The position numbers and the translations under genes were made by a program. From Ianthella basta (Eukaryota > Porifera > Demospongiae > Verongiida > Ianthellidae): a stretch of DNA of 64,000 bases. Shown here piece after piece: positions 27,406 to 45,121 of this stretch. Location of the stretch: contig OZ025881.1 of the NCBI GenBank assembly GCA_964019415.1, positions 6,080,524 through 6,144,523 of the forward strand, read 5' to 3'. The first letter of the stretch is position 1. Every line of letters begins with the position of its first letter. The notes beneath the pieces were generated by a model, which worked only from the letters and a program-made list of their open reading frames with translations, did not search any database and had not been told where the DNA came from.

Positions 27406-28435
27406 CACACGTACACCACACACACAACACACGCACACACACACATGCTCGCACACGCACACACACATACAATTATACATACATGCACACATGTATGTTT
27501 ACATGCACATGTATGCTCACATGGGATGTGTAAATTCTATCCCATTCACCATTTTAATTCATGAGACTGACAGTAGAGGAATTGACTGAAAGTGTACTTA
27601 CCTCTATAGAAGAGTTAACAAAATTGCTGAAGATTACTGCAATGCTAAGGTGTTACTGGGAAGATAAATTTCAGGGCTGAAAGCAATAGCAGATATCAGT
27701 TTAGCTATACCATGGACTGATACCAGGTCCCTGCAGCCATGCACGAGCAGTATACTAACACAGTCACGGTGAGGGAGCACCATCCAATTGTAAGCTCAGA
27801 CAGGAGGCTTATCAGTTTCATTTAACAGGAATGGAAATTTCCACAGAACTGTATTTCTTTTGTCCGGATACATACCCTCTGCAGTGGCTAGTTGCAAGCA
27901 ACTGCCCCTTGAAGTACTCTTTATGTACGTATATCTTCATCTTGTCAGAGCTGCTCCAATGTCAACTGCATATATTTCCTTCCTTGAGTCATATTCCCTT
28001 GCCTTCTGTTCGTGAAGAATCGGTCTAAGTGCATCATGCTATGTATATTCTGTCCCTGTGTTCTGTGCATGACTGACCTTTTTAGATTGTGCACTTCTTA
28101 TATAACTACTTTTCCGCTACACATTCATACTCCTTGACTGGCATGCAGGCAATTGGACTGCCAGGCATGGACACTAACAGTGAACGCTGTTCAGGCACAC
28201 ATTGATTTCATGCACACATACTTTAAATGTACTTTGGTTATGCACTGTATACAATACAAATGCTTGACTGGCGCTTGACAGAGTGACAAGTTTGCAAGTG
28301 GGCAGACTGCATGCTTGAAATGAAACCATGGTTAATGGGATACTTTGTGATGATTAAATGGGCAGTTGACTGCGTATTCACGTTTTTACCATGAGGTAAT
28401 AGCAACAATGCGGAAGCACCTTTTGTAAAGTGCCC
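26929..28435. other. G2-G3 intergenic region
   Basis: The interval contains the (CA)n tract and, from about 28106, the start of duplicated unit A. The missing first exon of G2 should be here, but I cannot place it. No other gene is seen. Confidence 0.6.
27160..27480. repeat. (CA)n microsatellite
   Basis: About 320 bp of interrupted CA dinucleotides. The long open frames here in all six readings are His-Thr or Cys-Val repeats, not proteins. Confidence 0.97.
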
Positions 28436-30099
28436 TCAGATGTACAGTTCACGAAAGATCACTTGCACCGAGTAGATTCCTTCGATCACTTTCATGAGTC
28501 GCACACGGTGCAGTCTCTTTTGCATGTTGAGCTCCCGTAGCAGGTCAGCCTCAGTCAGACTGCTGAGTACCTCTCCGTCAATATTCTCCTTCTTGAAGTA
28601 CTCTCTGTACTCCTCAAGCTGCATTGCCTCCAGCAGCTCGAGAACCTCATCCAACCTTAGACTCCTGAGGTAGGTTAAATTGTTCTTAATGGTCTCTTGC
28701 TTCACTGTACTGTCCAGTGATGCAGAAGCACCTGCCGCTGATAGGGTGCCACTAGACTGCTGCGTACTGGCCAGAATGACATCGGAATGTTGTCGTGAAA
28801 CACCCTTCCTCCATTGTACGGGTGACTCTCCGAGAATCGCATATTGGTATGAGCCATCGTCGTCGCCATCGTCATCACCCTCTGGCTTCCTAAAAATGCT
28901 GTAATACTGAATCTTGCTGACATTTTGCTTGATTGCAAGGCTGACGATCCTCACCACTTGTAGGTTGCAGTCAGCTGGAAACTCATATGTCTCTGAGGTT
29001 TCTGGTTTGCCATGGCATTCACTGAAAGGTTGGGCAACAAGCACCTCTTGCTTGACAATGGATCTCAATGTAACAGCTTCGGGAGAGCTTTCCAGGTAGA
29101 CTTTGACTGGTAACTTGCATGTATGCACTAACTGTACCAGATGCAACTGAATGTCTTGTGGGTGTATGCTGAAGACGCCAGTGCAACTAGCTGTGATAGT
29201 GACTATCTGCCCAGATGTATCTTCGGCTACAATTACGTCGCTGCATCTGCCCTCTCTTTTTGTGTGAGTGTTGAGTAGGATAGTGCCGGTTTGGATAATA
29301 ACCTGTTTCTTGGGATCTTCAAAGGGCTTCATCACTATCATTGCCAGTGGAAGTGAATTGGAGGATAGAAGAGTTTTGGCTGTGAACGTCCTGCTTTCTT
29401 CTGTCTCAAGGCGCGTCAGTAGTAGCTTGCAATTGTGATGCAAAGTAATTCTGTGTCCACTGGTAGTAGTACCATATGCCACTTTAACGGTTTTCTTGTA
29501 TTGCACCATGAGCAGCTCTCCTTCTTTCACCGCTGGAGGGCCTTTGTAATTTGATTTGGCTAAGAAGAGCTGTGGCAGCTGGGTGGAGTGATGCTTGGCA
29601 ACATCCGACAGAGGGATCGTCCTGCCTTCTTCCACGAGCTTCATTTGCCCTGTACCTGGCAGCCCTTGTGCTTTGGCTTTGTGGGCTGCATATGGGACAG
29701 GCAGGGGAGGCCTATTGCGTGCAAAGTTGGCACTTGTGCTGGCTAGTAGGGGACAGGCAGGGGAGGCCTTGTCACCTGCCTCCCTAGACACAGAAGTGTA
29801 TGGAAATATTCTTGACTGAGGGGTATCTAATGAAGTGAAAAGGAGATAAGATAGTGACAGGGCACACTAACCAAAACAGGTATCTTTAGCATTGTTAGCC
29901 CTAGTGTGAAGTGTTTACCTTCTTCTGGTACCGGTTTGTCTGGGGTTGATTTAGAACGGTTGGCCTTCTTGCCACTTCCCAGTACTTCTACTTCTTTTTG
30001 TGGACAAGAATCAGTAGTTGTAGGTCGAAATGGCTGCCTTAATTCAGTCACTTTTACACCTTCTGTTGGTTCAGGACTACTACTAGCACGAGATGCCAT
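28436..30099 (-). CDS. CABIT-SAM adaptor, GAREM-like (G3)
   Basis: Two exons, 30099-29919 and 29826-28436, join in phase 1 to 523 aa. Exon 1 opens MASRASSSPEPTEGV at an ATG and ends PVPEE(G). The acceptor TTCATTAG precedes ATACCCC. Layout: basic/Pro N terminus, Pro-rich PPLPVPYAA, CABIT (about 122-375, LPQLFLAKSNYKGPPA), an acidic linker with YQYAIL, and SAM (about 449-520, ending near RELYI). It is nearly the same as G4, with scattered substitutions and one replaced stretch just after VSREAGDKA, so the pair is a recent duplicate. Relative to GAREM1/2 the linker is very short, and the GRB2-type YxN motifs seen in G6 are absent. Function inferred from the family. Confidence 0.88.
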
Positions 30100-30464
30100 C
30101 TTCCTGCACCAGGAGTTACAGTATATTACACCTGCCTGGCAACTGCATCAACATTTGTATGGTTGCTTGCAGACCACTCTGTGTAGGCCACAGCATAATT
30201 ATATGCAGATTATTCATGGTTTAGTAATGATATTCATAGCCAGGTATTACACTCATGTACTGTGCACTACAGGATGATATTAAGTGTATTATAGGACTTC
30301 CTGAATGTAGAAAGTTGGTTCTGTAACTCATCTGGATGATGAAAATAAGTAAAATACACCAATGAGTGTATCATACTTGCCATGCATAAGTGGTGATAGC
30401 AAACTTGGGCCTTGCAATTTCATCACTTTACACAAGTCCCATCGACGTAAGTATCTATAAGTAG
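30100..30464. other. Upstream region of G3
   Basis: This is the likely promoter and 5' UTR of G3. It is collinear with 42855-43215 upstream of G4. No other feature is seen. Confidence 0.5.
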
Positions 30465-30507
30465 ACACAGCCACACACACAGCCACACACACACACGTAC
30501 ACACACA

Positions 30508-30546
<39 letters not shown>

Positions 30547-30566
30547 ACACATACACACACACCTTC
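30465..30566. repeat. (CA)n tract at left edge of LINE block
   Basis: This dinucleotide tract is the left remnant of the microsatellite that is continuous (43220-43487) in unit B. LINE sequence begins right after it. Confidence 0.85.
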
Positions 30567-34518: not shown

Positions 34519-37500
34519 TCATTGATTGCAAAAACGCTCATGGTTGTGAAGGCCCTGTAGTTTGAAAGTCTGGTGGCAGAACTGGCATTGGCCAGTCGAA
34601 GATAGACCATGTGTCTGCCTCTGGTAGTTAACAAGGCTGGCATGGTTCAGTGCAATGAAACCACAACCCTCTTCAGTACAACGAAGAGCAAGGTCTGATG
34701 ATGTTTGCCTTGCTTCACGGCGGCGCTTCTGCTCATCTTTACGGGTCTTCTCTCCAGCTTCTTTGGTGTCGTTGAGGTGTCCAGTCTCTGTCCATACCTT
34801 CTGCCTCCACTCACTCCGATCCTGTGTTAGTATCTTCCATTTGTCATCAAGGTTGCAGTCTCTGAGGTCCCTGAGCACCTGGTCATTCCACCTCATCCTT
34901 TGGCCTCCTGCTGACCGCCTACCTTGAGATGGAGCACACACAAGTAGTTTCCTTGGTTGACGGTCCTCAGACATTTGCATGATGTGACCCAGGAGACGAA
35001 GACGCCTTTGGGTCAACATGGTGGAGATTCGGTGAAGCCGTGCGGTCTTTCTGATGGAGGTGTCTCTCTGTCCATCCCACAAGGACACTCCAAGGATGGA
35101 GCGGAGACAGCGCATCACAAAACTCTGCAGTCGATGTACCTGTGGCTCCAGAAGCACTGCTGTTTCTAGGCCGTACAAGAGGGTGGAGAGGACTACAGAG
35201 TCGAAGATGTGGAGCTTAGTAGACAGCTTGATCTTCTTCTGGTGCCAAAGGATGCGATTGAGGGATCCGAAAGACTGAGAAGCCTTGGTTATACGTGAAG
35301 AGACCTCAACAATTGAAGTGCAGTCACTGGAAACAGTACTTCCAAGGTACTGGAAGGATGGAACTACCTCAATGGGGTCACTCTCCGCATGGAGGAGGAT
35401 GGGGGCTGGGGGTTGGGCATCAGCATCTGGCAGGACAGCAAGAAGCTTAGTCTTCTTACAGTTGATGGTTAAACCCATGTGGCGACATTTGGAATCGAGG
35501 GACTCAAGGAGGGTGGTGAGGCCATCATAGGAATCAGAAACCAATGCCATGTCATCGGCGTACTCTAGATCTGACACTGATACCTCTGATGTTAGCTTCT
35601 TCCTGTTTCCTACCAGGTCTGCATCCAGAAGGTAGGACAAGCTCAGACCTACACCTGGGCGATGGTCGTTGATGGCAATCCGAATCACAGCGTCAAAGAA
35701 GAGGTTGAACAAGATTGGTGCCAGCACACAACCCTGTTTGACGCAGACTGACACAGAAAACTGATCAGATATCTTGCCATAAGATCTTACAGCAGCACAT
35801 GTGTTCTCATGCAGGGCTTTGATGATGGCAAGAAACTTTGGTGGTAGATGGTAGCAGTGCTGTAGAACTGTCCAAAGTATGCTTCTGTTAACAGAGTCAT
35901 AAGCCTTACGCAGGTCAACAAAGCAAATGTACAAAGGATGGTGATACTCCCTTGCTTTCTCCATCAACACCCTGAGGGAGAATAGATGGTCTGTACATCC
36001 CCTTCCCTTGCGAAAACCACACTGATTCCCACACAGGAGGGCTTAAGCTCTGGGCTTGATCCGGTTCAGAAGAATACGAGCAAACACCTTGCTGGGGATG
36101 CTCAAGAGGGCAATGACCCTGTAGTTGTCGCACTCAGATAGACTGCCCTTCTTGTGAAGGGGGATGATGAGATGGTTGAGCCAATCTGAAGGGATGCTCT
36201 CACTGCTCCAGATGGAGTTGAACAGTGAGGTGAGCCAACGGATGGTTTCAACTCCTCCTAACTTCAACAACTCAGCTGATATGCCATCAGCTCCAGGGGC
36301 TTTGCCATCTTGAAGTTGTCCAATAGCTTATCTGATCTCCTCCTCTGTGATACACTGGGTCAGATCTTCATCATCATGAAATTTATCTCTGTAGGATGGT
36401 GTGGCTGCAATGATGTCTGGCAATACTTCAGGGTCAAATTGACTGACCGAGGTGCAGCAGTTGGACACTTCAGCAAAGTGCTCTGACCAGCGTTGAAGTT
36501 TATCAGTGTCACTGGAGAGAATGGACTTGTCCTTGGCAAGAAGGTAAGAAGAGGATGGCTTCGAAACTTGCTTCTTCAAGAGTCTCAGCTCCTTGATTAT
36601 GCTTCCACCACGACCTAACAGCTGGGACATCTTGGCTTTGTTCTCTGCTTCTTCTGCCCTGGCACTCCACCAAGCATTCCTTGCTTTCTCAGCAGCGACC
36701 TTGGTTAACCTCTTAAACCTACGGTACTCAGACAAGGCAAATGAATGTTGTTCATTATCAGAGGAGGACATGTCCCGTAGACGTAACCATGCTTCCTTTT
36801 TCTTCCTGGAGAGGTTCTTCACTTCATCAGTGATCCAGTCAACCTCCTTTTTCTTTGGTAGGGACGGGAGTTGGCCACAGGCATCCTGAAAGACTGCTTT
36901 GAAAGCAGTCCACTTATCAGCAACATCAGATGGACTGGGACTTGGACTGTTGGGTGTGGTGTGGTGGCTCTCATAGGCAACTGCTAAAGAGGTACGGAAG
37001 GCGGAGACAATGTCCTTTGGCAAACACTTGGTCTGACGAGGAGGAGGGTGGTGACACTGGTGATGCTTTGCTTTGATTTTGAAACGAAGAGTGGATATAA
37101 CGAGCTCATGATCAGATTGATGATGGACTCCATGGTAAACACGTGTATCCAGGATGGAGTTACGGTACTTGGCACTGACCAGAATGTAGTCAATCATGTG
37201 GCCAGGATTGGAGCGGTCACCATTTCGGAACCAAGTACACTGGTGCTTGGATTTGTGCTGGTACCAAGTGTTAGTGATGAGGAGCTTGTTAGTGGCACAG
37301 AAATCCAACAATCGTTGCCCGTTTTCATTGACTTGACCCATCCCATGAGGGCCAAGGACTGTATGCCAGGTGTTGGTGTCAGTTCCCACGCGAGCATTGA
37401 AATCTCCCAAGATAACGACCATGTCAGTAGGCGGAATGGTAGCCAGTACAGAATGCAAGTCATTGTAAAAATCCTCAGATGGTTGATTGGATTCAGATGT

Positions 37501-38238
37501 TGAGGAGACAGGGTTAGTGGGAGCGTAGACAGCAATTACTGTAGTGTAGCTAAGGTGCGATTTCAGGCGAATATGCATTATTCTATCGTTAACAGGTGTG
37601 AACACTCTTCCAGCTGCTTCCCAGGAAGAGCGAGCGTGAGGAGAAAGGGCAATGGCTACTCCACTGGTGTGTGAAGAGTCAGAGCCAGAATGAAGAATGG
37701 TACAGGACTGGATTTGAGTAATTCCATGACCCTGCCAGCGTGACTCAGAAAGAGCCAACAAGTCAATGAAGTGGGGGCTTCTCAGCTGGCTCAGGCATCA
37801 GAAAGGGTTGGTTCTCTAATACCAGCTTCACAACAGGGTTGAAAACCTTGCCAGGTAAGGTTTTCAACCCTGTTGTGAAGCTGGTATTAGAGAACCAACC
37901 CTTTCCAACAAGTCAATGTTCTTGTCAGTCATTGTCTCAATGATGTGTTGAAGCTTTAAGCTTTGCACACTGAGAGAACCCGCAGACTGGACATTCCAAC
38001 AAGCTAGTCTAGTCTTACCCTTCACATGAAGAAAGGTATGAGACTTAGACTTTGCAGTGAACTTGGTTTTAAAGGCTGTTGTTTTCTGAACATCATTTGA
38101 TGAACATGGAACAAATTGGGACGCCAACCCAACTGACCTTTGTCGTGCCATTAGCAGGGCCTTAACCCAGTGCCCAGGGATCACCACATGGAGGTTGCAC
38201 GACTCGATCCCCCCCCCCCCCCCACACACACACAGCAT
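34519..38238 (-). mobile_element. Near full-length non-LTR retrotransposon with three lesions (LINE-C)
   Basis: The minus strand carries one main frame with an AP endonuclease (CWNVQSAG at about 37990; GDFNARVG, GPHGMGQVNENG, HMIDYILV and SDHELV at 37050-37400), a reverse transcriptase (HKKGSLSECDNY, QCGFRKGRGC, FVDLRKAYDSVN, GCVLAPILFN, catalytic LEYADD at about 35555), and a C-terminal pair of C2H2/C2HC-like fingers (34519-34680). The frame is broken by a TAA at 36328-36330, a TAA at 36043-36045 and a 136-bp insertion at 37769-37904. Few other changes are visible, so it died recently. The clade is not certain; the EN-RT-finger order fits several EN-bearing LINE groups. Confidence 0.9.
37769..37904. 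mobile_element. Inverted-dimer foldback insertion in LINE-C
   Basis: The 14-bp word CCAACAAGTCAATG occurs at 37755-37768 and again at 37905-37918, giving a target duplication. Between them are 32 bp of extra sequence and then perfect 49-bp inverted arms (37801-37849 and 37857-37905) around a 7-nt spacer. The arm sequence is the same family as the element at 21046-21139. It splits the LINE endonuclease frame between NIDLL and ALSESRWQG. Confidence 0.85.
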
Positions 38239-38250
38239 GCGCTAACACAC
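38210..38250. repeat. C12 / (CA)n remnant at right edge of LINE block
   Basis: A C homopolymer and a short CA tract form the right border of the LINE block. The next bases (AATTGCTGAACC) are those that follow the intact microsatellite in unit B at about 43487. Confidence 0.8.
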
Positions 38251-40113
38251 ACAATTGCTGAACCCAAATGTGTATAGAATTATTAATAGGCAATGCTTGC
38301 AGTGGAAGTACTAAAAATTGTGAGCCATGTAACAAGTTGTCTACAAGACAACTTAGCGTGACAGCTACATGGTATTTCCTACTGCATGGTACATCCTACA
38401 GCATTAATATATTGCTAGAATGTGAACCGCTACTAGAGTGCAGCCAGCAATCTGTGTTAGTGTAACCTGAGTAATGTTTCTAAATGGATGTGTGTGACAT
38501 TGCACATACAGGACATAGTACCTGTGGCTACTGGTATATATATTAATACAGTAGTGTACAATGTTTAAAGCATGTATGTAGTACAGTAATACAGCACCAG
38601 AATACAGTGTCACAAGTACATATCAGAGTACATACCATGGTTACTGTTACACATACACGGACAGTGAACACTGTTCATGCACACAGATTGGTTAGTTGAT
38701 TATACAGAGCATTTGAAAATTGGTGTACCCACTTACACCATATTTGCATACATTTACCAGAGTCCTATCCAGTGCTGTATTTGAATCTTTAGTCAGTTGT
38801 CCATCTGCGCTTTAAATCAATTTCAGCCATTGTTACAAATATGTAGTTGTTTAAACTGTGTATGTTTGTACTAGAAGTAGTTGAATTGATTCAAAGCATT
38901 GGACAGCTGCTATAGTTGTGAAATTTACTTTTGCAGTGTATTAGTGTTTGTATAAGCAATGAGTTCACAACACATTCCTGTGGTGCAGTAGGTAATGATT
39001 CCAGGCCAATCAGCTGCCATTGAGCACATACCACAACACACCATTCTGTAGCTAAAGCCCCAGAGGTCCCTAACAGGCACCTCCCAGATGTCACAATGCA
39101 TGAGTAAGCCACAAACGCAGTGATCCCTTTCACAATTCTCCACTTTCTCAATGTACGTGTATAAATTCTATGGCAATATATTTTGGTTGCCCCAAACCAC
39201 AAACCTTTTTAGCATGAGAAATGACCAAACGAAAAATTTTAAATGCAAGATTTTGTCAACTTACAGTACAATAGTTTCAGATACACAACTGCATGTAAAC
39301 ACAGCACCACTGTACGTATGTATGTACATATATATTTCATTACACTGCTTTAAAACAGCTGTTGGCAGGCTAATAGGGCTCATATTAAGAGCCCAGTGCT
39401 CCTATGTGAAAGTGTACCACTATACATGACACACTAGTCCCTTTGATGCATGACTTCTACCAGTCTGACTGCTAGGCCCCTCCTATCATTGACACACAGA
39501 CTGGTAGCTCCCTTCCATCCCAGTGTGATAATTGAGAAGTTGTGCCTCTGAATGAATCAGTGCAGGACAGTCAGTTGCAAGTTGTCTAAACTCTCTTTGC
39601 CTTCCTTTCCTAAGTGCCTGAGGCAGGAGTAGATATGTAACAGATAGACTAGAGGGGTGCCTGTTCCCTAAATGGTTAGAGACGTGTATGTACTGTACTG
39701 TACAATGATGTGTACGTGTGTGTGCGTGTGTGCATGCGTTCGTGCATGCGTGTGTGTGCAAGTTATGAATTTGTGGTGTGTGTGAGAGTAAGCAAGCATG
39801 TATGTACGTACAGTACGTAGTGGAATCTCAGAAATAAGGCCACCATCCAGGCCATGCAAAGTGGTCTTATTTTCGAGGTGGTCTTTCTGAGAACCATAAT
39901 TCATGTATACATGGACATATGTATACATGGATTTGGGACTAAACCATAGTGGTCTTGTTTCTAAGGTGGTCATTTTGTGGAGGTGGCCGTTTAGTGGGGT
40001 TTCACTGTATGTACAGTGCGCATGTCACTGGGTGGATTAGTGTGGGTGGATCCAATGCATATATGCGTATCCGTGTGTCAGTGACAGCAGATGCATGTCT
40101 TGTTTACATTATT
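38251..40113. other. Distal part of unit A, no gene
   Basis: This is collinear with 43487-45392 of unit B apart from a MITE-like insertion at 39814-40009 here and a ribozyme-bearing insertion in unit B. No protein-coding signal is seen. It is far upstream of G3 and immediately downstream of G4. Confidence 0.6.
39814..40009. mobile_element. MITE-like insertion with CAGTGRAAYCYC ends
   Basis: About 195 bp present in unit A but not in unit B. The left end reads ...GTAGTGGAATCTC and the right end is GGGGTTTCACTGTA, the reverse complement of TACAGTGAAACCCC. This fits terminal inverted repeats with a TA target, as for mariner/pogo-related MITEs. Internal GTGGTCTT words repeat near both ends. Confidence 0.55.
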
Positions 40114-40837
40114 ACCGAGCATAGCGAGGCTCTGAATCTGGACAGTGGGAGCTTGCCCGGAGTTTGGTGACGCTTTAGGAATGCAATTAGTGTAACGCTT
40201 CAGGAACACAATTAGTGTAACACTTCAGGAACACAATTAGTGTAACGCTTCAGGAACACAATTAGTGTAACGCTTCAGGAATGCAATCAAATATAGCACT
40301 GGCTATTGTTCGCCTCACAGTTGCCTTCGCAAGTCAGTCAGTTTCCAATAGCTTTCTGATGAAGGATCCCTGCCTACGCGTGCGCTTTCTTTGGCTTCCA
40401 GGATCTCTGCCAGCAGCGTGCATTTTCTTCGGCTTCTAGTGCTCAATAGGCGCACGGGGCACTGCGTTGATCTGCTGTGTAGCTAGGCCTTCCCAATGGC
40501 ACAGCAGGCGTCACCAGTGGACGACACGCATGCAGCCGGACCTTCTTCCAGCTGCTCGAGCAGCTCTAGGAGCGAAAGCGTGGCTGCGCTAACACCAGGA
40601 CTTGCCCAGGCAGATGGACAAGGAATACTGGAGGCTATCTCATCCTACATGATCCCACATTTCTAGGGTAGATCTCAGGGCACTTCCAGTTTGCAAATCA
40701 TACCCACACTTAGCTAAGCGCTCCATAGTGCTTTAATATCACCTCCAGTTACATAGCCGACAGCGTTAACTGCCGAGGTTGGCTCTACTTGCACAGAGAC
40801 AACAGTACAGGTATGTACTTTAAGGGGTTGAATCACC
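40114..40837. other. Single-copy spacer between units A and B, with 25-bp repeat and a 56-codon frame
   Basis: It begins TACCGAGCATAGCGAGGC and holds 4.8 copies of a 25-bp repeat (40171-40290, CGCTTCAGGAACACAATTAGTGTAA type). An ATG frame at 40496-40666 encodes a 56-aa Ser-rich peptide (ending ISSYMIPHF). The segment is GC-richer than its flanks and may be part of a mobile element. It is also the upstream side of unit B. Confidence 0.45.
40171..40290. repeat. 25-bp tandem repeat
   Basis: Five copies, the last partial, of CGCTTCAGGAACACAATTAGTGTAA with one to three changes each. Confidence 0.9.
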
Positions 40838-41169
40838 ACTTTTCTGCTACATATTCATACTCCTTGACTGGCATGCAGGCAATTGGACTGCCAGGCATGG
40901 ACACTATAGCAGTGAGCACTGTTCAGGCACACATTGATTTCATGCACACATACTGTAAATGTACTTTGGTTATGCACTGTATTCAATACAAATGCTTGAC
41001 TGGTGCTTGACAGAGAGACAAGTTTGCAAGTGGGCAGACTGCATACTTGAAATGAAACAACTATGGCTAATGGGATACTTTGTGATGATTAAATGGGCAG
41101 TTGACTGCGTATTCACATTATTATTATGAGCTAATAGCAACAATGCGGAATCACCTTTGTAAAGTGCCC

Positions 41170-42854
41170 TCAAATGTACAGTTCATGAAATTTCGCTTGC
41201 ACCGAGTAGATTCCTTCGATCACCTTCATGAGTCGCACACGGTGCAGTCTCTTTTGCATGTTGAGTTCCCGTAGCAGGTCAGCCTCAGTCAGACTGCTGA
41301 GTACCTCTCCGTCAATATTCTCCTTCTTGAAGTACTCCCTGTACTCCTCAAGCTGCATTGCCTCTAGTAGCTCGAGAACCTCATCCAACTTTAGACTCCT
41401 GAGGTAGGTTAAATTGTTCTTAATGGTCTCTTCCTTCACTGTACTGTCCAGTGATGCAGAAGCACCTGCCGCTGATAGGGTGCCACCAGACTGCTGCGTA
41501 CTGGCCAGAATGACATCGGAACGTTGCCGTGAAACGCTCTTCCCCCATTGTATGGGTGACTTGCCCAGAATCGCATATTGGTATGGGTCATCGTCGTCCT
41601 CATTGTCATCACCCTCTAGCTTTCTGAACATGCTGTAATACTGAATCTTGCTGGCTTTACGCTTGTTTTCAAGGCTGACGATCCTCACCACTTGTAGGTT
41701 GCAGTCAGCTGGAAACTCATATGTCTCTGAGGTTTCTGGTTTGCCGTGGCATTCGCTGAAAGGTTGGGCAACAAGCACCTCTTGCTTGACAATCGATTTC
41801 AACGTAACAGCTTCAGGAGAGCCTTCCAGGTAGACTTTGACTGGTAACTTGCATGTATGCACTAGCTGTACCAGATGCAACTGAATGTCTTGTGGGTGTA
41901 TGCTGAAGACGCCAGTGCAACTAGCTGTGATAGTGACTATCTGCCCAGATGTATCTTCGGCTACAATTACGTCGCTGCATCTGCCCTCTCTTTTTGTGTG
42001 AGTGTTGAGTAGGATAGTGCCGGTTTGGATAATAGCCTGTTTCTTGGGATCTTCAAAGGGCTTCATCACTATCATTGCCAGTGGAAGTGAATTGGAGGAT
42101 AGAAGAGTTTTGGCTGTGAACGTCCTGCTTTCTTCTGTCTCAAGGCGCGTCAGTAGTAGCTTGCAATTGTGATGCAAAGTAATTCTGTGTCCACTGGTAG
42201 TAGTACCATGTGCCACTTTAACGGTTTTCTTGTATTGCACCATGAGCAGCTCTCCTTCTTTCACCGCTGGAGGGCCTTTGTAATTTGATTTGGCTAAGAA
42301 GAGCTGTGGCAGCTGGGTGGAGTGATGCTTGGAAACATCCGACAGAGGGATCGTCCTGCCTTCTTCCACGAACTTCATTTGCCCTGTACCTGGCAGCTCT
42401 TGTGTATCGGTCTTGTGGGCTGCATATGGGACAGGCAGGGGAGGCCTATCGCTTGCAAAGTTGGCACTTGTGTTGGCTGGTAGGGTCTTGGCATTAGTGC
42501 TCAGTCCTTGTTTCGTCCAAGCTTTGTCACCTGCCTCCCTAGACACAGAAGTGTATGGAAGTGTTCTTGACTGACGGGTATCTAGTGAAGTGAAAAGGAG
42601 GCAAGATAGTGACAGGGCACACTAACCAAAACAGGTATCTTTAGCATTGTTAGCCCTAGTGTGAAGTGTTTACCTTCTGCTGTCACCGGTATGTCTGGGG
42701 TTGATTTAGAACGGTTGGCCTTCTTGCCACTTCCCAGTACTTCTACTTCTTTTTGCAGACAAGAACCGGTACTTGTAGGTTGAAACAGCTGCCTTAATTC
42801 AGCCACTTTTACACCTTCTGTTGGTTCAGGACTACTACTAGCACGAGATGCCAT
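41170..42854 (-). CDS. CABIT-SAM adaptor, GAREM-like (G4)
   Basis: Two exons, 42854-42674 and 42581-41170, join in phase 1 to 530 aa. The intron position is the same as in G3 and the protein nearly identical. Differences include SREAGDKAWTKQGL for SREAGDKASPACPL, and changes in the acidic linker (YQYAILGKS for YQYAILGES). Layout: N-terminal basic/Pro segment, CABIT (about 130-380), short acidic linker, SAM (about 456-527). No stops or frame breaks, so both duplicates look functional. Function inferred from GAREM/THEMIS-type CABIT proteins. Confidence 0.88.
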
Positions 42855-43219
42855 CTTTCTGCACCAGGAGTTGTGGTATTTTACACCTGCCTGGCAGCTG
42901 CAGCAGCATTTGTATGGTTCACCTCTTGTAGAGTGATCTGGGTAATTGTAGGTATGCAGATACGTAAGTCATGCTTCGGTAATGATATTCATAGCCGGGT
43001 AATACATTCATATACTATGTACTACAGAATGATAACAAATGTATTATAAGACTTCCTGAATGCAGAATGGTTCTGTGACTCATCTGGATGATGCAAACAA
43101 GTAAAATACACCAATGAGTGTATCATGCTTGCCATGCATAAGAGGTGATACGGTAGATTAATTGCAAACTTGTGCCCTTGCAATTTCATCACTTTACACA
43201 TGCCCCATCTAAGTATCTA

Positions 43220-43488
<269 letters not shown>

Positions 43489-43916
43489 TGCTGAACCTAA
43501 AGATTATATAGTATCATTAATAGGCAATGCTTGCAGTGGAAGTACTAAAAATTGTGAGCCATGTAACAAGTTGTCTACAAGACAACTTAGCGTGACAGCT
43601 ACATGGTATTTCCTACTGCATGGTACATCCTACAGCATTGATATATTGCTAGAATGTGAACCGCTACTAGAGTGCAGCCAGCAATCTTTGTTAGTGTAAC
43701 CTGAGTAATGTTTCTAAATGGATGTGTATGACATTGCACATACAGGACATAGTACCTATGGCTGCTGGTATACAGTAGTGTACAATGTTTTCTAAAGCAT
43801 GTATGCAGCTATAACAGCAATACAGTAACCTATCCAATAGTGTGTTTATATCTTTAGTCAAAGTTGTCCATCTGCACTGTGAATCAATTTCAGCCATTGT
43901 TACAAATGTGTAGTTG

Positions 43917-44230
43917 AACAAAGTGTAATCACTGGATATTACACCTACCAGCCTTCTACACCAAAGTGTTTCAGGAGGCTGGGGGGGGGGCAGCGCCCTA
44001 TTGATGACAACCAGTGATCGCCCTCCCCCATTACTAGTCATCCTACAAAGATGGAAGAGCCACAGACAGCTGTTTCGCCCTGAATCACCTGGCTCATCAG
44101 TGTGGTGTACTGATGGAATGCAGGATGACTAGTCACTCTTGTATCCACCACCAGTGAAACACTTGTTGTTTCAACAAGAGCGAACATTAATGGGAGAAGG
44201 CTAAGTCATGAGCGTGACTTGTGTGGGAGT
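43917..44230 (-). mobile_element. Insertion private to unit B carrying a hammerhead ribozyme
   Basis: Unit A runs directly from TGTAGTTG to AAACTGTGTATG (about 38845-38863), while unit B has about 315 extra bases at this point. The insert contains a G10 run, inverted ACTAGTCATCC/GGATGACTAGT words either side of the ribozyme, and the ribozyme itself on the minus strand. No open frame is seen; it is non-autonomous. Confidence 0.7.
44060..44105 (-). ncRNA. Type I hammerhead ribozyme
   Basis: Minus strand, 5' to 3': stem I strand CCACA (44105-44101); CTGATGA (44100-44094); stem II beginning GCC and ending GGC with a purine-rich loop (44093-44077); GAA (44076-44074); stem III ACAGCTGT, a palindrome (44073-44066); C at 44065, the cleavage nucleotide after GU; then TGTGG (44064-44060), which pairs perfectly with CCACA. 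All invariant hammerhead core bases (CUGAUGA, GAAA, GUC) are present and the G10.1-C11.1 pair is kept. A short palindromic stem III is typical of hammerheads in Penelope-like retroelements, where dimers are favoured. Confidence 0.82.
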
Positions 44231-44943
44231 GTTGAGAAACTGTGTATGTTACTACAAGAAGTAGTTGAATAGATTCACAGCTTTGGACAGCTGTTGAGAA
44301 TTTTGCTTTGCAGTGTACTCGTGTTTGTATAAGCTATGAGTTCACCACATTCCCGTGGTGCAGTAGGTAATGATTCCAAGCCATTCAGCTGCCATTGAGC
44401 ACATACCACAACACACCATTCTGTAGCTACAGCCCCAGAGGTCCCTAACAGGCACCTCCCAGATGTCATAATGGATGAGAAAGCCACAAACGCAGTGATC
44501 CCTTTCATAATCCTCCATTTTCTCAATGTACGTGTATAAATTCCACTGTATGTATGTGCATACATATATATTTCATTACACTGCTTTAAAACAGCTGTTG
44601 GCAGGCTAATAGGGCTCATATTAAGAGCCCAGTGCTCCTATGTGAAAGTGTACCACTATACATGACACACTAGTTCCTTTGATGCATGACTTCACCCAGT
44701 CTGGCTGCTAGGCCCCTCCTATCATTGACACAGGCTGCTAGTTCTCTTCCATCCCAGTGTGCTAATTGAGAAGTTGTGCCTCTGAATGAATCAGTGCAGG
44801 ACAGTCAGTTGCAAGTTGTCTAAACTCTCTTTGCCTTCCTTTCTTAAGTGCCTGAGGCAAGAGTAGATATGTAACAGATAGACTAGAGGGGTGCCTGTTC
44901 CCTAAATGGTTAGAGATGTGTATGTACTGTACTGTACAATGAT

Positions 44944-45121
44944 GTGTACGTGTGTGTGCGTGCATGCGTGTGTGTGCGTGTGTGTGTGTGCACGCATGCA
45001 CGCACGCATGCATGCATGCGTGCGTGTGTGTCACTGTATAGGTATAACAAGAGAGAGGCTACAGCTTACGTTGCCTCCAGACTCAATGCAACCTATTCAG
45101 TTACTTACAGAGTGCTGAATG

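Follow-up and report, generated by a model that had tools for sequence, protein, structure and literature searches.

Penelope-like elements were proposed as candidate movers of retrozymes in PMC7229834 (2020) and PMC7761336, and LINEs or Penelope-like elements were named again in this role in PMC11722881; in the 2020 and 2024 papers, Penelope-like elements are thus still only candidate movers of the animal retrozymes. The insertion biochemistry of these elements comes from the account of Frangieh et al. 2024 (PMC11167929), according to which a purified Penelope-like protein extends both strands and initiates cDNA synthesis at two neighboring positions within the RNA. The two adjacent start sites give rise to a genomic "tail", which its authors call unique to Penelope-like elements. 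In their experiments the start site did not differ between the two strands in vitro, and hammerhead mutants still inserted. Another study (PMC3846280) places the tail on one of a pair of inverted pLTRs, together with head-to-head arms and junction palindromes, and reports that genes flanked by pLTRs were mobilized in trans; for inverted Penelope copies the authors favour self-priming, and the two Penelope types that they compared were not seen to mobilize each other.

The window analyzed here, a 64,000-nucleotide stretch of the Ianthella basta genome, contains on its minus strand a type I hammerhead core at 44060–44105, all parts of which can be located in the letters where the earlier note had placed them. 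Along the minus strand, these are the CCACA strand of stem I (44105–44101), CTGATGA (44100–44094), stem II with loop 2 (44077–44093), GAAA (44076–44073), stem III (44066–44073; ACAGCTGT, a 4-bp palindrome without a loop, whose shape matches the Rfam Hammerhead_1 alignment), the cleavage triplet GTC with its last base at 44065, and the TGTGG strand of stem I (44064–44060), with the predicted cut falling between 44065 and 44064. Stem I is extended by an outer helix, the 5′ strand of which (44119–44133) is 93% complementary to its 3′ strand (44033–44047), both likewise on the minus strand. The core is kept across subfamilies. Stem II and loop 2 are altered in the window copy (GCCAGGTGATTCAGGGC vs GCCCCAATCAGGGC in the consensus), leaving 3 bp and a changed loop as against 4 bp. 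A scan of the window returned no Rfam match for this copy at the gathering threshold; in a focused scan it scored 19.0 bits with Hammerhead_1, below the cut-off of 34, and 15.7 bits with the type III hammerhead model.

The core belongs to a single-armed insertion at 43913–44237 (minus strand), which runs from u196 to u365 and then from u1 to u149, where u1 is the first base 3′ of the hammerhead cut. It thus comprises 325 bp of a 365-bp noncoding unit and agrees with the unit of the sister locus L009 in 299 of 325 aligned columns. Its RNA 3′ end (43913–43920, minus strand) coincides with one of the two start sites described below (E1, here u147–149), and its RNA 5′ end (44232–44237, minus strand) lies at u196 adjoining the other (E2); u150–195, i.e., most of the tail, is absent. 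The two units of the segmental duplication, A (38223–39760) and B (43457–44992), align across the insertion site with the element present in B only, and the empty site in A is uninterrupted (ACAAATATGTAGTTGTTTAAACTGTGTATG, approximately 38838–38856, plus strand). A genome search places the left flank of the insertion in just two places, namely units A and B. This bears out the earlier claim that the insertion is missing from the matching place in unit A, and corrects its length from about 315 bp to 325 bp. Its description as young holds in a relative sense, given that the window copy, at 92% identity to the L009 unit, is not among the youngest copies, the young loci being mostly 95–100% identical. 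A target duplication was considered for the window copy and rejected, as the look-alike bases are already present in the empty site of unit A.

Elsewhere in the window, a series of related SAM-domain genes extends over 21447–51772, two of which sit in a 2.5-kb duplication (28102–30561 and 40832–43330) with 91% identity between its copies. A LINE-type retroelement occupies 34519–37797 on the minus strand, with reading frames for endonuclease and RT.

A loose core pattern (CTGATGAGN{5,20}CGAAACN{2,12}GTC), run on the 209-Mb genome and on a reversed control, yielded 421 matches in the former and 3 in the latter, ruling out a chance motif. These matches include other hammerhead families: among 100 listed, 85 are of the retrozyme type and 15 belong to other groups. 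Together with at least 50 genomic matches of the 201 bp surrounding the window motif, they clearly supply the further genomic copies whose absence would, by the earlier note, have refuted the claim. Eight units of L009 match Hammerhead_1 (RF00163) at 38.7 bits (E 3.1e-07; cut-off 34), and the covariance-model check proposed earlier has accordingly come out divided, with the consensus units of the family passing it and the window copy falling short. The hammerhead is nearly unchanged in older loci, which are mostly 72–90% identical to the 365-bp unit, and it displays the conserved core and the three helices of the type I class. Over 22 sequences, 94.1% of cells conform to the predicted pairing as compared to 27–41% for slid structures, with stem III paired in 98.9% of cells and the outermost four pairs of stem I in only 78.4%. 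In the outer helix, two pairs have changes in both partners, a number reached by 249 of 500 shuffles (mean 1.5), while 13 cells show both-sided changes as against 4.2 in shuffles, none of the 500 attaining that figure; the covariation score likewise lies above all 500. Given this slight covariation and the weakly kept outermost four pairs, the support for the outer helix is modest. Taken together, the excess over the reversed control and the Rfam-passing units of L009 point to a real hammerhead at the level of the family and to a window copy that is worn, with a changed stem II loop. The hammerhead of the retrozyme family is thus genuine, and self-cleavage is predicted for it.

Hammerhead-like cores also occur in a separate 9.17-kb repeat (L029:194–9363 on C2 and, flipped, L030:163–9332 on C3), which has 1.47-kb nearly identical terminal inverted repeats with one such core in each, and in a relative of this repeat in L031 (C1), whose core folds completely with helices of 6, 4 and 6 bp. 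None of these cores attains the Rfam gathering score. A 5-bp duplication (AACTC) flanks the repeat at L030 and none is visible at L029. A DNA search for the hammerhead core found 0 matches in the viral collection and 0 in the prokaryote collection.

The 365-bp unit is taken from L009, where a 914-bp antisense arm is followed, head to head, by a 2277-bp sense arm, amounting to 2.5 and 6.2 laps of the unit, respectively. Over 914 bp the two arms complement each other at 100%, and a looser count over all segment pairs finds 16 differences in 12,475 positions. The longest ATG frame on the circle is 41 aa; hence, the element has no coding capacity and lacks the RT and GIY-YIG frame that marks Penelope-like elements. 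The head-to-tail 365-bp units with a type I hammerhead in each are the organization of metazoan non-LTR retrozymes. The sister loci that we sampled lean toward the best-scoring genome matches of the 201 bp from the window, and exclude duplicates of other loci (L019, L021, L022, L035) as well as other elements (L029–L034). At L005, L014 and L020, short inverted retrozyme pieces are seen at the head-to-head junction, resembling the junction palindromes reported for Penelope (PMC3846280).

On either side, the sister copies terminate in an RNA 3′ end, the two ends being on opposite strands and falling at two sites 53 nt apart: E1, at u139–152 in young copies and ending in ...TTTGTTCA, and E2, at u200–209 in young copies and ending in ...CCTCTCA. 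The retrozyme thereby carries the two adjacent start sites of the Penelope-like tail signature. With end ranges set after inspection of the data (E1, 136–155; E2, 196–210), ends were scored in 34 loci, a set that takes in only some of the older loci among L038–L068: 22 have both ends in range, L005 and L039 are partly out of range, and 10 are single-armed (L001, L003, L008, L025, L027, L037, L047, L063, L065 and L067). Twenty-one of the 22 pair E1 with E2. The remaining one, L046, an older locus with 84–86% identity, is E1+E1 by these ranges, though by eye its arms extend past the BLAST ends. All 21 E1+E2 loci, on which the duplication test was run (L005, L039 and L046 being set aside), are flanked by target duplications exceeding 4 bp, with flank scores of 9–15, whereas 0 of 420 mismatched flank pairs score 9 or more (maximum 8). 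The two-armed loci L005 and L039, with one end outside the ranges, have no recognizable duplication. Among the single-armed loci, a wider flank test recovers a 12–13 bp duplication at L025 and L037 and none in the others, and a stricter test retains only that at L025, where inspection by eye reveals a further, tiny arm of some 8 bases; at L003, 12 flank bases are alike but are read as element sequence rather than as a duplication. Hence, target duplications go mostly with double priming.

The arms also bear on the form of the template. One lap is exceeded by 23 of 54 arms, with 18 of them, in 16 loci, exceeding 385 nt, the longest being 2277 nt and the laps reaching up to six. A hammerhead-cut linear monomer cannot have templated those 23 arms; as a candidate template it was rejected, no outer RNA 3′ end lying near u365/u1 in the 34 loci. 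In only two arms (L018:1509 and L063:1176) does the 5′ end fall on the predicted hammerhead cut (u1/u365), which is where the copying of a cleaved RNA to its terminus would stop. When the first typed segment of each arm is compared, the haplotype at u137/u140 agrees between the two arms in 19 of 19 loci (permutation p 1e-5); over all segments it does so in 18 of 19, L015 having one deviating base; this concordance spoke for one template lineage per insertion. Divergence does not separate single from multiple templates, amounting to 2.8% among the segments of a single locus, with L009 excluded, and to a similar 3.1% between loci. The 5′ ends of arms crowd at u191–213 (12 of 54, scan p 0.012), and five E2-primed arms end 4–10 nt beyond one lap. 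Snap-back of one cDNA was rejected as the source of the inverted arm, in that the two outer ends differ. The multi-lap arms, shared haplotypes, crowded 5′ ends and near-one-lap stops are consistent with a single circular molecule serving as the template for both ends.

The same genome contains Penelope-like elements, among them a separate element in L077 that encodes RVT_1 and GIY-YIG. Neighboring GIY-YIG matches, among the 55 listed, form 13 minus-plus pairs, 0 plus-minus pairs and 2 same-strand pairs; neighboring hammerheads on C1–C4, counted over the 85 retrozyme-type matches among the 100 listed of 421, form 11, 0 and 9 (tandem), respectively. The two Penelope-like insertions that were read across both ends each have a 12-bp duplication and two different 3′ ends. 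A search with the Penelope-like 3′ end gave at least 47 matches, from 40 scored candidates out of 230, and the ends fall into two groups, at query positions 126–146 (19 matches) and 154–186 (26 matches), with 2 in neither; this family, too, displays two adjacent 3′ ends, i.e., the tail signature. All 12 resolved head-to-head pairs combine one end of each group, the count leaving aside C19:3920752 and a further short stretch at the C17 locus. Thus, the retrozyme and the Penelope-like family obey the same rule of insertion, with one site per end. The two tails, 53 nt in the retrozyme and 36 nt as cut in the Penelope-like family, have in common the 10-nt sequence GCAATGAACC, whose first base lies within or next to the 3′ strand of a predicted hairpin and whose last base precedes the outer start by 9 and 12 nt, respectively. 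A match of this length is reached by 3 of 5000 shuffles; the shared motif is a single 10-mer, and the retrozyme may have a partner other than the Penelope-like family examined. BLAST of the retrozyme against the Penelope-like loci gave no match, and a search with the Penelope-like protein in viral contigs led nowhere.

We consider it quite probable that Penelope-like machinery uses a circle of the retrozyme as template at both ends of the broken DNA. From the anatomy of the element and from the published animal retrozymes, we infer a course of events, including cleavage, circularization, protein binding and their order, in which tandem-unit transcripts would be cut by their own hammerhead and closed into 365-nt RNA circles. 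A host Penelope-like protein, with its RT and GIY-YIG endonuclease, would then bind the circle at the tail with its two start sites and make a staggered break in the target. Both broken DNA ends would be extended on the circle, one from E1 (u147) and the other from E2 (u200–203), with the reverse transcriptase rounding the circle more than once to generate head-to-tail units. Joining of the two cDNAs 5′ to 5′ would leave a head-to-head array between target-site duplications. The window copy may represent a one-armed outcome, primed at E1, copied round the circle to about E2 and joined to the target without a duplication. In its fullest form, toward which we lean only slightly, a single circle would template both ends within one Penelope-like complex, with a different start site for each, such that arrays, arms, duplications and haplotypes arise in one event and the same rule applies generally to autonomous Penelope-like insertion. 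Counted against the copying of a circle by Penelope-like machinery are L046 with its E1+E1 ends, L005 and L039 without a duplication, the lack of a duplication at most single-armed loci, and the similar divergence within and between loci. The same holds for the published in vitro results, with no strand difference in start site and insertion independent of the hammerhead (PMC11167929), and for the self-priming account and the absence of cross-mobilization in PMC3846280.

The use of a circle can be questioned while retaining the Penelope-like machinery, if the template were instead a linear RNA of several units, transcribed from a genomic array. Multi-lap arms and concordant haplotypes are equally expected from such a transcript, and the Anolis element inserts in vitro without hammerhead cleavage (PMC11167929). 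Nevertheless, the L009 arms comprise 2.5 and 6.2 laps as against at most 3 same-strand units on C1–C4 among the 100 matches listed, the transcript would itself bear the predicted ribozymes, and the aforementioned stops of five E2-primed arms shortly past one lap tell against it; we therefore hold a linear multimer to be unlikely.

A different mover would be a LINE-type element acting via ordinary twin priming. Twin priming produces head-to-head structures, and it also yields 5′ inversions and target duplications; moreover, the genome has many matches to LINE-type RT and endonuclease. To our knowledge, LINEs do not use a pair of fixed start sites with one for each strand, but it is just this pattern that the Penelope-like family of this genome shows. 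Further, the 150 best RVT_1 matches include a single head-to-head (minus-plus) pair (Fisher p 1.3e-7 for GIY-YIG vs RVT_1, with matches taken as independent), and the 150 best PF14529 matches include 0, the latter a weak control as this domain lies near the LINE 5′ end. LINE-mediated movement accordingly appears improbable to us. Least credible by far is the spread of a satellite DNA by recombination with the hammerhead as a passenger: it would account for the identical units in tandem, but scarcely for copies that are dispersed, end at fixed positions and carry target duplications, or for the empty site in unit A.

If circles are indeed copied by Penelope-like machinery, the insertions suggest that Penelope-like insertion primes both DNA ends, each at its own site. 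As they bear a signature that has been described as exclusive to Penelope-like elements, the question of the mover becomes directly testable.

Set beside the known systems, the retrozyme shares with Penelope-like elements the two adjacent start sites and the extension of both strands (PMC11167929), as well as the head-to-head arms, target duplications and junction palindromes (PMC3846280); the Penelope duplications are given as 8–10 bp in PMC3846280 as compared to 12 bp in two copies here. It differs from them in having no protein, a type I hammerhead by Rfam and a 365-nt unit that is copied repeatedly. Plant LTR retrozymes, as described in PMC7229834, are likewise noncoding, ribozyme-bearing and thought to spread via RNA circles, but are about 700 bp long, with a type III hammerhead, LTR features and 4-bp target duplications. 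The metazoan non-LTR retrozymes of Cervera and de la Pena 2020 (PMC7229834) come closest, having in common the type I hammerhead, a noncoding unit of 170–400 nt, tandem copies, target duplications of more than 4 bp and Penelope-like elements in the same genome; their G+C content is below 50% as compared to 52.6% for the unit here, a trait that is descriptive and not taken as defining. The element thus fits a new family of this described kind: the earlier note was right in pointing to a small element related to retrozymes and Penelope-like elements, and the part of its proposal that stands as undescribed is the family rather than the kind (PMC7229834). The arrangement of the arms head to head and the tail signature of Penelope-like type had escaped it. 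Head-to-head arms with two fixed start sites do not appear in the abstract, the opening results and the discussion of PMC7229834, and among the open-access papers searched no title or abstract opening reports the two-start signature in retrozymes. What is new here is the mode of insertion, with two fixed ends and arms laid head to head.
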